Shown here: in pieces, positions 9,200 through 60,907 of the stretch
Position numbering within the stretch: position 1 is the first letter of the stretch
How the letters are laid out: each line of letters starts with the position of its first letter
DNA from: Promethearchaeota archaeon
GTDB lineage: Archaea; Asgardarchaeota; Lokiarchaeia; Sigyniarchaeales; SOKP01
DNA length: 64,000 bases
Direction of reading: 5' to 3'
Assembly: GCA_019058365.1 (NCBI GenBank)
Contig: JAHPZE010000002.1
Location: forward strand, 1 to 64,000
Translations under genes and position numbers: made by a program
The notes under the pieces: model-generated
The model's database searches: none
The model's input: only the letters and a program-made list of their open reading frames with translations
What the model was told of the DNA's origin: nothing

Positions 9200-9204
9200 G
9201 GTGA
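9200..9204 (+). promoter_or_regulatory. Shine-Dalgarno GGTGA that decides the S14 start
   Basis: GGTGA followed by exactly six nucleotides (AAAAAG) places the ribosome on ATA at 9211. Its last three bases form an in-frame TGA, which excludes any start further upstream. The L5 leader just before has a very similar layout ending in ATG. Confidence 0.75.
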
Positions 9205-9210
9205 AAAAAG

Positions 9211-9360
9211 ATACCACAAGGTAAACATCACGGTAAAGGTCAGAGAGAGTGTAGAAGATGTCATACTCACAGAGGTGTAATCCGGCGTTATGGATTATAT
9301 CTCTGTAGAAGATGTTTTTATGAAATAGGAAAAGAAATTGGATTTAAAAGGTTTGAATAA
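9211..9360 (+). CDS. rpsN: 30S ribosomal protein S14, AUA start codon
   Basis: This gene is absent from the ORF track. Reading from ATA gives a complete 49-residue archaeal zinc-type S14 (uS14): [33 protein letters not shown] and the final GFKRFE. Four cysteines (CRRC and CRRC) bind zinc. An in-frame TGA lies two codons before the ATA, and no ATG, GTG or TTG occurs in this frame before the zinc domain, so a non-canonical start is forced unless an A in the AAAAAA run is a sequencing error. Deleting one A would create ATG-GTG-AAA-AAG in frame; against this, no Shine-Dalgarno precedes that ATG while GGTGA is ideally spaced for ATA. It sits between L5 and S8, as expected. Confidence 0.88.
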
Positions 9361-12584: not shown

Positions 12585-13109
12585 ATGTCTATGGCAAAAA
12601 AGAAATCAAAATTAAAACAAACAGAATTTACATCAAAATTGTATTTCGCTGTTCGTATTAGAGGGGCCCCGGGTATGAAGGGAAAAATTTTAGATACCTT
12701 AAAGATGCTAAGAATGCATAAAGTCAATCATGGTGTGCTTGTATGGGGTAGTCCCTCATATAAAGGAATGTTAGTAAAATGTAAAGATTATATTGCTTAT
12801 GGAGAAATTGATGAAAAAACCTTAATTAGACTATTAAGAGTACGAGGAAAAGTAGAAGGGAATGTATCACTAACAGAGGAGCATATTAAAAATTTAACCA
12901 ATTACAAAAATTTTAAAGAATTAGCAAAAGCATTACTAAATGGAGAAATAAAATATCGAGAAAAAGAAATATACAAAATTAAACCAGTATTCCGATTACA
13001 TCCTCCAAGAAAAGGACATCGCGGATCTATTAAAAAGCATTATAAGGAAGGAGGAACGCTTGGTGATATTGGACTATACATCAATGAATTAATTCATAAA
13101 ATGTTATAA
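12585..13109 (+). CDS. rpmD: 50S ribosomal protein L30
   Basis: uL30 (archaeal/eukaryal L7 type), 174 residues. The core is FAVRIRGAPGMKGKILDTLKMLRMHKVNHGVLVWGSPSYKGMLVKCKDYIAYGEI, with the C-terminal FRLHPPRKGHRGSIKKHYKEGGTLGDIG. A GGAG/GGTG stretch lies before the ATG; a second ATG two codons on is also possible. Confidence 0.95.
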   Translation: MSMAKKKSKLKQTEFTSKLYFAVRIRGAPGMKGKILDTLKMLRMHKVNHGVLVWGSPSYKGMLVKCKDYIAYGEIDEKTLIRLLRVRGKVEGNVSLTEEHIKNLTNYKNFKELAKALLNGEIKYREKEIYKIKPVFRLHPPRKGHRGSIKKHYKEGGTLGDIGLYINELIHKML

Positions 13110-13115
13110 TAAAAA

Positions 13116-13120
13116 GGTGA
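13116..13120 (+). promoter_or_regulatory. Shine-Dalgarno GGTGA that decides the L15 start
   Basis: GGTGA, then AGGAGT (six nucleotides), then ATT. The last three bases form an in-frame TGA stop, so the L15 reading frame cannot begin earlier. Confidence 0.72.
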
Positions 13121-13126
13121 AGGAGT

Positions 13127-13609
13127 ATTACAAGAAAATTTCCAAAAAAGGTCCGTAAAATGAGAGGCAGACGTACTCATGGTTATGGAAAAGTAGGTCA
13201 ACATAGAAAAACGGGACAACGCGCTGGTAGAGGTAAAACTACTCAATGGAAAAAAAGTAAAAAAAGCTATTATTTAAAACAAAAAGAACTCGGATTTCCA
13301 GACCCAGATTGGGATATGGGAAAAAAAGGGTTTAAAAGACCACAAGATATTGTTAGAATTTATCATGATAATACAATTAATGTTAAGGATTTAGATCATA
13401 GAATTGATAGTTACGTTCTGAATAATAAAGCCACAAAATCTGGAAATACTTATAACATAAACATGAATGAAATTAATATTCAAAAAGTATTGGGAAAAGG
13501 AGATGTAAATAAAGTAATTAACATAACAGTAAATAAAGCATCTCAAAAAGCTATTGAAAAAGTAGAAGCTGCTGGTGGTAAAATTACGTTATTATCTCAA
13601 GCAGATTAG
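13127..13609 (+). CDS. rplO: 50S ribosomal protein L15, AUU start codon
   Basis: uL15. The ORF track starts at an internal ATG (13160), but the conserved archaeal N-terminus RKFPKKVRKMRGRRTHGYGK continues eleven codons upstream to ATT. An in-frame TGA lies at 13118-13120, so only the internal ATG or a non-standard codon can initiate. GGTGA with a six-nucleotide spacer points at ATT, giving 160 residues. Residues 13-40 (RGRRTHGYGKVGQHRKTGQRAGRG) are the family's rRNA-binding signature. It is the last ribosomal gene of the operon; SecY, which normally follows, lies elsewhere on the opposite strand. Confidence 0.9.
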   Translation: MTRKFPKKVRKMRGRRTHGYGKVGQHRKTGQRAGRGKTTQWKKSKKSYYLKQKELGFPDPDWDMGKKGFKRPQDIVRIYHDNTINVKDLDHRIDSYVLNNKATKSGNTYNINMNEINIQKVLGKGDVNKVINITVNKASQKAIEKVEAAGGKITLLSQAD

Positions 13610-17204: not shown

Positions 17205-18623
17205 TTAAATGTTTTTTAGTTTAAAACTTCTTAATTCTTTTAAAAATACGGGATCTCCTTTTTTTATCTTCTTGTTTTCATTTTTAAAACCCACAATAAC
17301 AGCCCCTTTAGTGCCAAAAGTGTTTAAAACCTTTGTAAACGGGGGTTCTAAGATTTTTCCAATAATTTTTTTTGCACCAATAGCGCTTTGCGCTAATCCT
17401 AAGCAGATAATTCCTTGAGGATGTTCAGGATTCTTTATTATACCTTTTTTAGTTTTGTATTTATAAAATAAAGGGAGATCTTTATATATTTTCAATAACT
17501 CTGCTGATCCTAATATCCTTAAAGTAGTAGGAGGTAAATCTAATCGACTTAGGAGCATAATTGTTCTCTCTTTTCTTATTAGAACTTTTTCTTTAAATAA
17601 AATTAAAGCATTAAACCCTCGATCCGTATTTTTGATTGTAGTTTCAATTCTTTTTCCATCTAATTCATAATATGGATAAATTTTACCAGTAGTTGTTACC
17701 ATTCCAATCGTAATATGAATTTGTGTGCCAAACTTTGTCTTGGATTTGAATAACTTATTGGTATTTACCTTTATTTCAATAATATTGCAATAATCAAAAT
17801 CATTTGGGTTATTTGTAGCATAACAGCCCCGATAAACTTTTTTCAAATCTAATCCTTTTATATTGATGCCAATCCTATCACCAGCTTTTGCAATTTCAAC
17901 ATTATGGTGAAAGATTTGAATGTTTTTTACTCTCCCAGACATATTTACTGGTAATACCTCTAAATTTTGATTTAACCTTAGGGTTCCATTTAAAAGTGTA
18001 CCTGTTAATATTGCTCCCATACCTTTTATAGGGAAATGATGATCAATAGGAATTATAATATCTCCTTCACTATGTCTTTCAATTTTTAATGAATTAATCA
18101 TCTCTAATATTCCATTTTTTAGTTCTTCAAATCCATCTTCCTTTTTTGCAGAAACCGCAAAAATTGGAACATCATGACCGAAGGAGGTCGAATCAAAAAA
18201 TTCTCTTGTTTTATTGATTTCTATTTCAAGGTTTCCAGTAAAAAGATCAATTTTATTGAGAATCACAAGGATCTTATCGATTTTAAGTGATTCGATCATA
18301 ATAAGATGCTCTCCTGTTTGAACTTGAGGGCCTTTATTAATATCTATGACAATTAAAGCACAATCAATAATTTCTACTGAGGATGCACTAATTTTTATTA
18401 GATCTGCATGACCGGGGCCATCTACTAAGGTAATTAGATACTTATCCAATAAAAAACTTGTAAAACCCAGATCTATTGTTATCCCTCTTTCTTTGCTTTG
18501 GGGATGTGCATCAATACCAGCTGTAGAAATTATTTCACTAATTACTTTTGCTATAGCCGTCTTCCCAGAGTCGATATGTCCAAACAATCCAATGTGTATT
18601 GGGATTTTCTTTTCAATATCCAT
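17205..18623 (-). CDS. selB: Selenocysteine-specific elongation factor SelB/EFSec
   Basis: An EF-Tu-like GTPase of 472 residues. G1 is GHIDSGKTAI, G3 is DGPGHADLI, G4 is NKID and G5 is SAK. After the G domain and beta-barrel domains II and III comes a short fourth domain ending in GDPVFLKELRSFKLK, as in archaeal and eukaryal EFSec rather than the four winged helices of bacterial SelB. The insert HPQSKERGITIDLGFTSF is the switch I region of SelB (RGITIDLGF). It delivers Sec-tRNA(Sec) to UGA codons. tRNA-Sec and SepSecS lie 4.5 kb away. PSTK and SelD are not in the window. Confidence 0.9.
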   Translation of the reverse strand: MDIEKKIPIHIGLFGHIDSGKTAIAKVISEIISTAGIDAHPQSKERGITIDLGFTSFLLDKYLITLVDGPGHADLIKISASSVEIIDCALIVIDINKGPQVQTGEHLIMIESLKIDKILVILNKIDLFTGNLEIEINKTREFFDSTSFGHDVPIFAVSAKKEDGFEELKNGILEMINSLKIERHSEGDIIIPIDHHFPIKGMGAILTGTLLNGTLRLNQNLEVLPVNMSGRVKNIQIFHHNVEIAKAGDRIGINIKGLDLKKVYRGCYATNNPNDFDYCNIIEIKVNTNKLFKSKTKFGTQIHITIGMVTTTGKIYPYYELDGKRIETTIKNTDRGFNALILFKEKVLIRKERTIMLLSRLDLPPTTLRILGSAELLKIYKDLPLFYKYKTKKGIIKNPEHPQGIICLGLAQSAIGAKKIIGKILEPPFTKVLNTFGTKGAVIVGFKNENKKIKKGDPVFLKELRSFKLKNI

Positions 18624-23167: not shown

Positions 23168-23218
23168 TCTCCTCGAGGGCCGCCATTATATCAAAAAAAT
23201 AATTACATTGTGTTTTCA

Positions 23219-24580
23219 ATGGTTGACTTTAACAAAATTATTGAATTTTTTGAAACTTTGAATATTCCTGAAAATATGCTTAAGAGAGGACAACTTGTTT
23301 TAAATGAGTTCATGAATCCAATAAAAATTTTATTTGAACAAAGATCTGTACCTAATAAACCTTGGACTGATGAACAAATCGAATTCTTACTTCAAACACT
23401 TTCAAATATGGATACAGATAAAGATATTAATGCTGCTAGAGTAGGTGAAAGAGAAGGAAGAATCGCTTCAAAATTACATTTAAGAACGTCAGCAGGATTC
23501 TGCCATGGTGTGGGAAGAAGTGGATTTTTAACAGCACCTCAACCTAAGGCACCTGGTGGATCAATAATGTATGAACTTTCTAATTACTTAGCTCGTAATA
23601 TTTTAAGAAATACGGGATTACCAAACATAAAGGAGGCAATTGTAGTCCCGTTATGTACGGGAATGTCTTTATCTTTAGCATTGAGCGCTTTAAAATTTAG
23701 TAAGAGTGAAAGAGAATTGAATCATAAAAGAACAGTCTTAGTTCCTCAAGTAGATCATAAATCTCTTTTAAAAGCGATTGATTTTGCAGGTTTTAAAGCA
23801 AAAATTATTCCCGGACAGATTTTTGGAGATGCGGTTAGGATTCCAATAGATGATATAAAAAATCATTTTGATAATGACTGTTTTGCTATCATCTCAATTA
23901 CTAGTTTTTTTCCCCCTCGTGAACATGATAATATTAAAGAAATAAGTAAATTCGCTCAAGAAAAGAATCTTGTACATATCGTTATAAACGCATACGGGGT
24001 TCAAAGCCCAGAATGGATGAAATTAATTCGTTCTGCAATTGATGCAGGGAAGATAGACGCAATAATTCAATCAACAGATAAAAATTTCCTTACTCCTATA
24101 GGTGGAGCTGTAATAGCATCACCGTTAAAAGAAAATATAACTAAAATCAGCCAAGCATACGCGGGTCGCGCCTCAGCCACACCTATTGTGAATTTCTTAA
24201 TTTCAATGTTATCAATAGGAATAAAGGGTTATCAAAAACTACTCAAAGAACAACAACATAATCGTGAAATTCTCGAAAGAAAATTAAGGGAAATTGCTGA
24301 AAAACTAAATGAAAGAATTCTTGATATATATAATCCCGTTGCTGTAGCACTATCATTACAAAATCTAAGTGAAAAAAAATTGTATGCCCTTGGTGGAGCA
24401 TTGTATAACTTAAGAGTAACAGGACCAAGAGTATATAACCCAAAAGAAAACCCATTTGGAACATGTTGTAGCAATTATCCAACCCCATATATCGTAATGA
24501 ATGCTGCAATTGGAGCATCAGAAAAAGATATCATTTCTGCTGTCGAGAGATTTGAAAAAGCATATAACCAAATAGAATAA
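23219..24580 (+). CDS. spcS: O-phosphoseryl-tRNA(Sec) selenium transferase
   Basis: SepSecS, the PLP enzyme that converts phosphoseryl-tRNA(Sec) to Sec-tRNA(Sec) using selenophosphate. The protein is about 453 residues from the ATG at 23219 (the track uses an upstream GTG). Family segments seen are the N-terminal VGEREGRIAS, then FCHGVGRSGFLTAPQPKAPGGS, VVPLCTGMSLSLAL, VPQVDHKSLLKAI, and the PLP-lysine region STDKNFLTPIGGAVI. The C-terminal half is AGRASATPIVNFLISMLSIG. The gene follows tRNA-Sec by 33 nt. The pathway needs PSTK and SelD from elsewhere in the genome. Confidence 0.93.
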   Translation: MVDFNKIIEFFETLNIPENMLKRGQLVLNEFMNPIKILFEQRSVPNKPWTDEQIEFLLQTLSNMDTDKDINAARVGEREGRIASKLHLRTSAGFCHGVGRSGFLTAPQPKAPGGSIMYELSNYLARNILRNTGLPNIKEAIVVPLCTGMSLSLALSALKFSKSERELNHKRTVLVPQVDHKSLLKAIDFAGFKAKIIPGQIFGDAVRIPIDDIKNHFDNDCFAIISITSFFPPREHDNIKEISKFAQEKNLVHIVINAYGVQSPEWMKLIRSAIDAGKIDAIIQSTDKNFLTPIGGAVIASPLKENITKISQAYAGRASATPIVNFLISMLSIGIKGYQKLLKEQQHNREILERKLREIAEKLNERILDIYNPVAVALSLQNLSEKKLYALGGALYNLRVTGPRVYNPKENPFGTCCSNYPTPYIVMNAAIGASEKDIISAVERFEKAYNQIE

Positions 24581-39943: not shown

Positions 39944-40627
39944 TTAATCCCCTTCTTCTAAGATTACCTTATGTGCTATTTTACCAATTTTTTCTATCGA
40001 TGCTTCAATTAAGTCTCCTGGTTGAATCGGGCCTACTCCACTAGGAGTTCCAGATGCAACAATATCTCCAGTGAATAATGTGACAAATTTGGAGAGATAT
40101 GAGAGAATTTCAGGAATTTTGAAAATCATATATTTTGTATTTGATTGTTGACGAACTTCTCTATTAATTTGTAATTTAATATTTAAATTATGAGGATCTT
40201 CAATCTCACTAAAAGGTACAATTCTCGGGCCAATTGGTCCAAATGTATCGAAATTTTTGCTTCTATACCATGGTAAATTAATATTTCTATCACTTATCTG
40301 CATTTTCCTCGCGGTTATATCTAGAAAAATAGTGTATCCTTCGATATATTCATGAGCGTGCTCAATTTGAATATTCTTACATTTCTGAGAAATTATAAAT
40401 GCTAATTCTACTTCGTGATCTACTTGATTATATTCTTGACTATCATACAGTATTTTAGGATAGATAATTGGATTCCCATCAGTCACCAATGTATTTACAG
40501 TTTTCCCGAAGAATACTGGATCTTTTGGTACTCGTGCCTTCATCTCCCTTGCATGATCTACATAATTACGTCCCAAACAAATTATTTTTGTAGGACTTAT
40601 CTCATTTTCTCCAATTTTGATAATAAT
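39944..40627 (-). CDS. Fumarylacetoacetate hydrolase-family protein, AUU start
   Basis: A FAH/acylpyruvase-fold enzyme. The track starts at TTG inside the conserved ICLGRNYVDHARE. The upstream codons IIKIGENEISPTK align with the paralog next door (MKIGLQTINPTKIICIGTNY), and an in-frame TGA limits the extension, leaving ATT at 40627 or the next ATT as start, seven nucleotides after GGTGA. Metal-binding residues are in EVELAFIIS (the Glu of the E-x-E motif) and DITARKMQ, and SGTPSGVGPIQPGD is the family C-terminal motif. It likely cleaves or hydrates an acylpyruvate-like acid. Confidence 0.82.
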   Translation of the reverse strand: MIIKIGENEISPTKIICLGRNYVDHAREMKARVPKDPVFFGKTVNTLVTDGNPIIYPKILYDSQEYNQVDHEVELAFIISQKCKNIQIEHAHEYIEGYTIFLDITARKMQISDRNINLPWYRSKNFDTFGPIGPRIVPFSEIEDPHNLNIKLQINREVRQQSNTKYMIFKIPEILSYLSKFVTLFTGDIVASGTPSGVGPIQPGDLIEASIEKIGKIAHKVILEEGD

Positions 40628-60286: not shown

Positions 60287-60907
60287 ATTATAATAAAACA
60301 TCGGGGTTTCGAACCTAAATTTGATTCCTCTGTATTTATAGCACCCACAGCAGCAGTTGTAGGTAACATTTCGATTGGAAAAGATTCAAGGATAATGTAC
60401 GGTTCTGTTCTTGATTCAGAAGGTTCTACAATCGAAATTGGTGAATGTTCAATAATATGTGAAAATGCTGTTCTTAGGGCTACAGCATCAGGAAATCGCG
60501 AGTATCCTGTAATAATTGGGGATCATGTCTTTGTTTCACCGCAATCAACTATTATAGGTTGTGAAGTTGAATCTAATTCATATATAGCAACGGGTGTCAC
60601 TGTTCTGCAAGGTGCTATTGTTCAATCTGGTGCCGCGGTAGCTGTTGGAGCTTTTGTTCATGCGAATACAGTTATTCCCGCAAATTCGTTTATTCCTCCA
60701 AATAATATAGCTATTGGAGATCCAGTTAGAATCTATAGTCCTAAAGAGAAAGAAGGCTTGATTAAAGCAATAAAATCAATTGAGTTTGCTAAAGTTGCAT
60801 TTAATGTTGAAGCAAATTGGGAAAATCGCTTTGAGAGGTATAGACAAGCTACGATGGTTCGTTCAAAAGAATTTGAGAGCCATTTTAATGATGAGATAAT
60901 AGTTTGA
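60287..60907 (+). CDS. Gamma-carbonic-anhydrase-like hexapeptide protein, AUU/AUA start
   Basis: A left-handed beta-helix protein of about 206 residues. The track starts at an internal ATG (60395), which removes the first hexapeptide turns (FIAPTAAVVGNISIGKDSRI). The in-frame TGA upstream leaves ATT-ATA-ATA as the only start region, and GGTGA plus six points to ATT. The zinc-ligand histidines of catalytic gamma-CAs are not seen (VLRAT and VSPQSTIIG occupy the matching turns), so catalysis is doubtful. The IIGDHVFV turn slightly recalls dynactin p25. Confidence 0.8.
   Translation: MIIKHRGFEPKFDSSVFIAPTAAVVGNISIGKDSRIMYGSVLDSEGSTIEIGECSIICENAVLRATASGNREYPVIIGDHVFVSPQSTIIGCEVESNSYIATGVTVLQGAIVQSGAAVAVGAFVHANTVIPANSFIPPNNIAIGDPVRIYSPKEKEGLIKAIKSIEFAKVAFNVEANWENRFERYRQATMVRSKEFESHFNDEIIV

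Follow-up and report, generated by a model that had tools for sequence, protein, structure and literature searches.

Third-base-mismatch start codons are normally very rare. In animal mitochondria, AUU, AUA and AUC are used as starts besides AUG, without Shine-Dalgarno (SD)-directed initiation and with a modified tRNA-Met. In E. coli, the gene for IF3, infC, starts at AUU, and a change of this codon to AUG abolishes its autocontrol (Butler et al., 1987), while eIF1 controls its own synthesis by way of a start codon in poor context (Ivanov et al., 2010); both papers stand in the references of PMC9845219. The archaeal factor aIF1 resembles IF3 in its start-codon proofreading function; the two have different fold topologies and probably no common ancestor (PMC7531240).

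We analyzed a 64,000-nucleotide stretch of a Lokiarchaeial genome (the window), in which the initial annotation had judged that ribosomal protein uL15 probably starts at AUU. Judging from sequence, with no proteomic or ribosome-profiling data to draw on, uL15 of this archaeon almost certainly starts at AUU and not at AUG. As in animal mitochondria, AUU, AUA and AUC (together, AUH) appear to serve as starts in this genus; unlike in mitochondria, they appear to be SD-directed and used with a CAU initiator, the anticodon seen in four genus members. Like the GUG and UUG codons from which some bacterial and archaeal genes start, they are near-cognate codons behind an SD, but GUG and UUG mismatch at the first base and AUH at the third. 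The elements at uL15 are as follows.

13116..13120, + strand: uL15 SD element GGTGA, conserved in relatives and complementary to the 3' end of this genome's 16S rRNA (GGATCACCTCC)
13127..13129, + strand: uL15 start codon ATT (AUU), with no other near-cognate codon from the stop to the conserved N-terminus; ten genus members keep it
13127..13609, + strand: uL15 gene, 160 aa from AUU, PF00828, single copy in the genome

The gene follows uS5 and uL30 in the uS19-uL15 ribosomal protein cluster (spc operon), and its product matches the PF00828 profile with 57.8 bits against a curated cut-off of 21.5. Two features that had been put forward for this start, an in-frame TGA at 13118 and a GGTGA separated from ATT by six bases, were both confirmed: the frame is closed upstream by the TGA at 13118-13120, which itself forms part of GGTGA (13116-13120), and the spacer from there to ATT 13127 is exactly six bases. 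As uL30 ends at 13109, this TGA is not the stop of the upstream gene. Beyond it, the codons run AGG, AGT, ATT (13127), ACA, AGA, AAA, TTT, CCA and onward to an ATG at 13160, with no ATG, GTG or TTG in the uL15 frame between the TGA and that ATG. Another element, AAGGAG (13120-13125), was considered as the uL15 SD and rejected, as it is not kept in relatives, unlike GGTGA.

No canonical start codon precedes the ATG at 13160 in the frame, and translation from this ATG would yield a product beginning MRGRRTHG and 11 residues shorter. We consider this very unlikely. Such a start would drop the conserved KKVRK residues of uL15; indeed, the residues lying 5' of and spanning this ATG, already singled out in the initial annotation, are genuine conserved uL15 sequence (KKVRKMRGRRTHGYG). 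Moreover, there is no conserved SD at 13160. An alignment to archaeal uL15, which had been suggested as a check, places residue 1 of the AUU product opposite residue 1 (Met1) of the archaeal uL15 of solved structure, 9e6q_AL.

Across the genus, ATT follows GGTGA at uL15 in 10 of 18 members, the window genome (G000) included; the other nine are G010, G014, G001, G004, G002, G012, G009, G013 and G018, with a spacer of five bases in G013. These ten genomes form one clade on the tree. The bases between the SD and the start differ among relatives (AAGAGT, ATGATC, ATAATT, GTAATT, ATTATT, ACCATT), while ATT and GGTGA remain constant. In the remaining genus members, uL15 has an ATG one codon past the ATT position, at residue 2 of the window protein, so that the ATG-started relatives have their ATG adjoining the AUU position and not at 13160, and in other genera the gene starts with ATG. 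Three of the ten are ambiguous, because a canonical codon also lies between the SD and ATT (ATG in G014 and G002, GTG in G018).

The annotation had described the geometry at uS14 as the same as that at uL15. This held for the SD and its six-base spacer but not for the codon, which is ATA and not ATT.

9200..9204, + strand: uS14 SD element GGTGA, six bases before the start codon
9211..9360, + strand: uS14 gene, start ATA at 9211-9213, no canonical codon in frame, AUH in 16/16 genus members, single copy

The uS14 frame in the window contains no ATG, GTG or TTG anywhere, a situation that initiation of uL15 at ATG 13160 would leave unexplained. In all 16 genus members the uS14 start is AUH (ATA in 7, ATT in 8 and ATC in 1), never ATG; outgroups have ATG, GTG or TTG. 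Every genome with a match has a single uS14 copy. On the tree, the start codon changes only three times within the genus, always among A, T and C and never to G. The operon neighbours of uS14 start almost throughout with ATG, GTG or TTG, showing that the method itself does not generate spurious AUH starts.

The uS10 gene starts with ATA in every one of 16 genus members, and an in-frame TAA or TGA usually lies two codons before it. In 51 Lokiarchaeal MAGs drawn from many assemblies, the codon at this position is ATA in 20, ATG in 16, TTG in 7, GTG in 6 and TCG in 2. As ATT differs from ATG by one base, a sequencing or assembly error could in principle have created the uL15 ATT. Yet ATT recurs at uL15 in 10 genomes, AUH at uS14 in 16 and ATA at uS10 in 20 MAGs produced by separate projects; with independent assemblies agreeing, we regard an error as in practice already refuted, and its probability as negligible. 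The TCG at uS10 (~998) stands behind GGTGAGAAAAAC in two MAGs, L310 and L311, of the genus of G024. In neither does any ATG, GTG or TTG occur between this position and the preceding stop, 17 codons away; an ATT lies 15 codons up. Their uS10 starts at UCG or else is extended at the N-terminus.

For aIF1 (SUI1), the start is ATT in all 14 genus members in which it is readable. Beyond the genus, it is ATT in G019, G021 and G023, ATC in G022 and ATA in G028 and G032, so that the start is non-AUG across two families; it is probably TTG in G030, G034 and G037, and ATG in family f4. The basic loop of aIF1, judged by eye from sequence, showed no obvious loss. Almost every genus member has ATA or ATT at the start of IscU, as do G019-G022, and G003, G023 and G024 have ATG; on the tree, the IscU start codon has changed at least 8 times, among AUA, AUU, AUC and AUG. 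The eL21 start varies within one genus among ATA, ATC, CTG, TTG and ATG. Its apparent CTG start was seen in G017 (L213), as AAGGTGCAAAGCG-CTG.

The TGA upstream of uL15 might instead be recoded, with readthrough from a start farther 5'. Two genes of the window, named by eye, are relevant here, SelB-like (17205-18623, - strand) and SepSecS-like (23210-24580, + strand), and the organism probably encodes selenocysteine. The uL15 TGA, however, belongs to the SD; before the starts of uS10, aIF1 and IscU, the stop in relatives shifts in position and may be TAA, TGA or missing, and the sequence upstream of these three starts is not conserved as protein. Thus, we give readthrough hardly any credence. 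Separately, G006 has an IscU-like frame with one internal TGA (C85:74238-74642, L193), possibly selenocysteine or two joined genes.

Two further genes of the window look AUH-started, judged from its own sequence with no relatives compared.

39944..40627, - strand: FAA hydrolase family gene, likely ATT start at 40627-40625, with GGTGAATGAAAA upstream
60287..60907, + strand: hexapeptide-repeat transferase-like gene, likely ATT start at 60287-60289, with GGTGA and six bases upstream

With uS14 and uL15, this makes four such genes in the window, which agrees with an AUH share of several per cent. The wider survey took in about 555 kb of G000, whose 54 contigs total 4.74 Mb (29.5% GC over the portions read), along with 400 kb of G004, so that neither genome was covered in full. 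In the G000 portion, the in-frame codon 7 bases past GGTG was ATH in 12 of 28 cases and ATG in 6, compared with same-frame controls of 2/28 ATH at spacing 4 and 3/27 at spacing 10 (5/55 in total; Fisher p=6e-4). With uS14 and uL15 removed and G004 added, the contrast persisted (14/40 vs 5/82 controls, p=9e-5). Outside the genus, in G030 and other operons, there was no such enrichment (1/34 vs 6/62 controls). We also fitted start codons by an unconstrained EM model in which the 61 sense codons were equal at the outset. For G000 and G004 pooled, it returned ATG 0.75, TTG 0.087, GTG 0.031, ATT 0.030, ATA 0.026 and ATC 0.012, so that the three AUH codons rank straight after the canonical ones. Together the ATH codons reached 0.068 (bootstrap 0.021-0.068), compared with 0.013 for the next NNH family. 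Applied to G030, the model found no ATH starts; G030 and G024 are too noisy for codon ranking. The bootstrap range is broad (2-7%), and figures for any one codon in a single genome carry little weight. In the Lokiarchaeial lineage, AUH starts are systemic, and the initial annotation had caught only a small part of them. Its proposal for uL15 itself is supported by the conservation of ATT and GGTGA, the alignment to Met1 of 9e6q_AL and the genus-wide AUU, AUA and AUC starts. As far as sequence can establish it, in-frame stops leave no choice but AUH at these starts, and the starts are conserved.

The initiation machinery seems ordinary. G000 has a canonical 16S 3' end (GCTGGATCACCTCC), complementary to GGTGA. 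The initiator tRNA anticodon is CAU in G001, G008, G011 and G016 by pattern search, which does not exclude extra initiators; with the patterns used, the initiator of G000 was not recovered, and the first tight pattern was also blank for G004. Some initiator tRNA genes, found in G001, G011 and G016, are interrupted by an intron after anticodon position 37, and that of G030 (L345) seems to carry a D-arm intron; such introns hide these genes from simple scans. Given a canonical anti-SD and a CAU initiator, the simplest mechanism, which leaves room for a modified C34 or an altered aIF2 or aIF1A, is an ordinary initiator with a third-position mismatch and a strong SD holding it. In this model, GGUGA at 13116-13120 would pair with the 16S anti-SD (UCACC), setting AUU in the P site; the normal initiator Met-tRNA (CAU) would then pair at two positions, with the third-base mismatch tolerated, and uL15 would consequently begin with Met. 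In the genus, and to some extent in its family, a small share of genes (some 2-7%) would regularly start at AUU, AUA or AUC, as a rule with a GGTG-type SD around 7 bases before the codon. Overall, we hold it very likely that uL15 starts at AUU 13127 by way of the GGUGA SD and the ordinary initiator, within this regular use of AUH codons. Met insertion at AUH, SD-based tolerance of AUH and regulatory retention of non-AUG starts are all inferred, without experiment.

Why the lineage retains these codons is less clear. Like E. coli infC, this genus has AUU behind an SD in an essential translation gene, and aIF1, the functional analogue of IF3, has AUU across the genus; unlike the situation at infC, many further genes start at AUU, AUA or AUC, and there are no data on aIF1 autoregulation. 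The parallel with eIF1 is that a homologous fidelity-factor gene has a suboptimal start, but eukaryotes use the context around AUG, whereas in Lokiarchaeial aIF1 the codon itself is non-AUG. By analogy, the persistent lack of AUG, most notably at aIF1, suggests control that depends on initiation fidelity, as at infC. The strongest hint of such regulation is aIF1 itself, whose role in start-codon proofreading resembles that of IF3. As aIF1 has a conserved non-AUG start of its own, AUH genes may be tuned by its activity, an inference for which we have no direct demonstration. A tentative and on balance doubtful extension is that aIF1, uS14, uS10, uL15, eL21 and IscU form a fidelity-sensitive regulon governed by aIF1, in a loop separate in origin from that of bacterial IF3 and infC. 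Alternatively, the AUH starts may be real but the product of neutral drift under relaxed start-codon selection, which would bear on the regulatory part only. IscU and eL21 switch among AUA, AUU, AUC and AUG, and the three changes at uS14 are too few to prove avoidance of AUG; on the other hand, AUG is never seen at uS14, uS10 or aIF1 in the genus. With only three changes among A, T and C at uS14 and free switching at IscU, neutral relaxation remains possible, and we put its chances at about even.

AUU at infC and AUN starts in mitochondria were already known. A literature search for AUU starts in Asgard or other archaea, covering open-licence papers only and no preprints, found nothing, and conserved, systematic AUH initiation in archaea was not found in the literature searched. 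If it is borne out, standard gene callers, limited to ATG, GTG and TTG, cut short or overlook essential Asgard genes such as uS14, and N-terminal comparisons between Asgard and eukaryotic proteins will have to be corrected. With its conserved AUU, aIF1 makes the parallel to bacterial infC and eukaryotic eIF1 directly testable.

The codon usage described above extends to an actin paralogue, which has an ATT start in G000, G010 and G012. This second actin gene (in G000 at C34:311881-313020, L145) has its ATT behind GAGGTGGTTTTAAA; the main actin gene has ATG in relatives.
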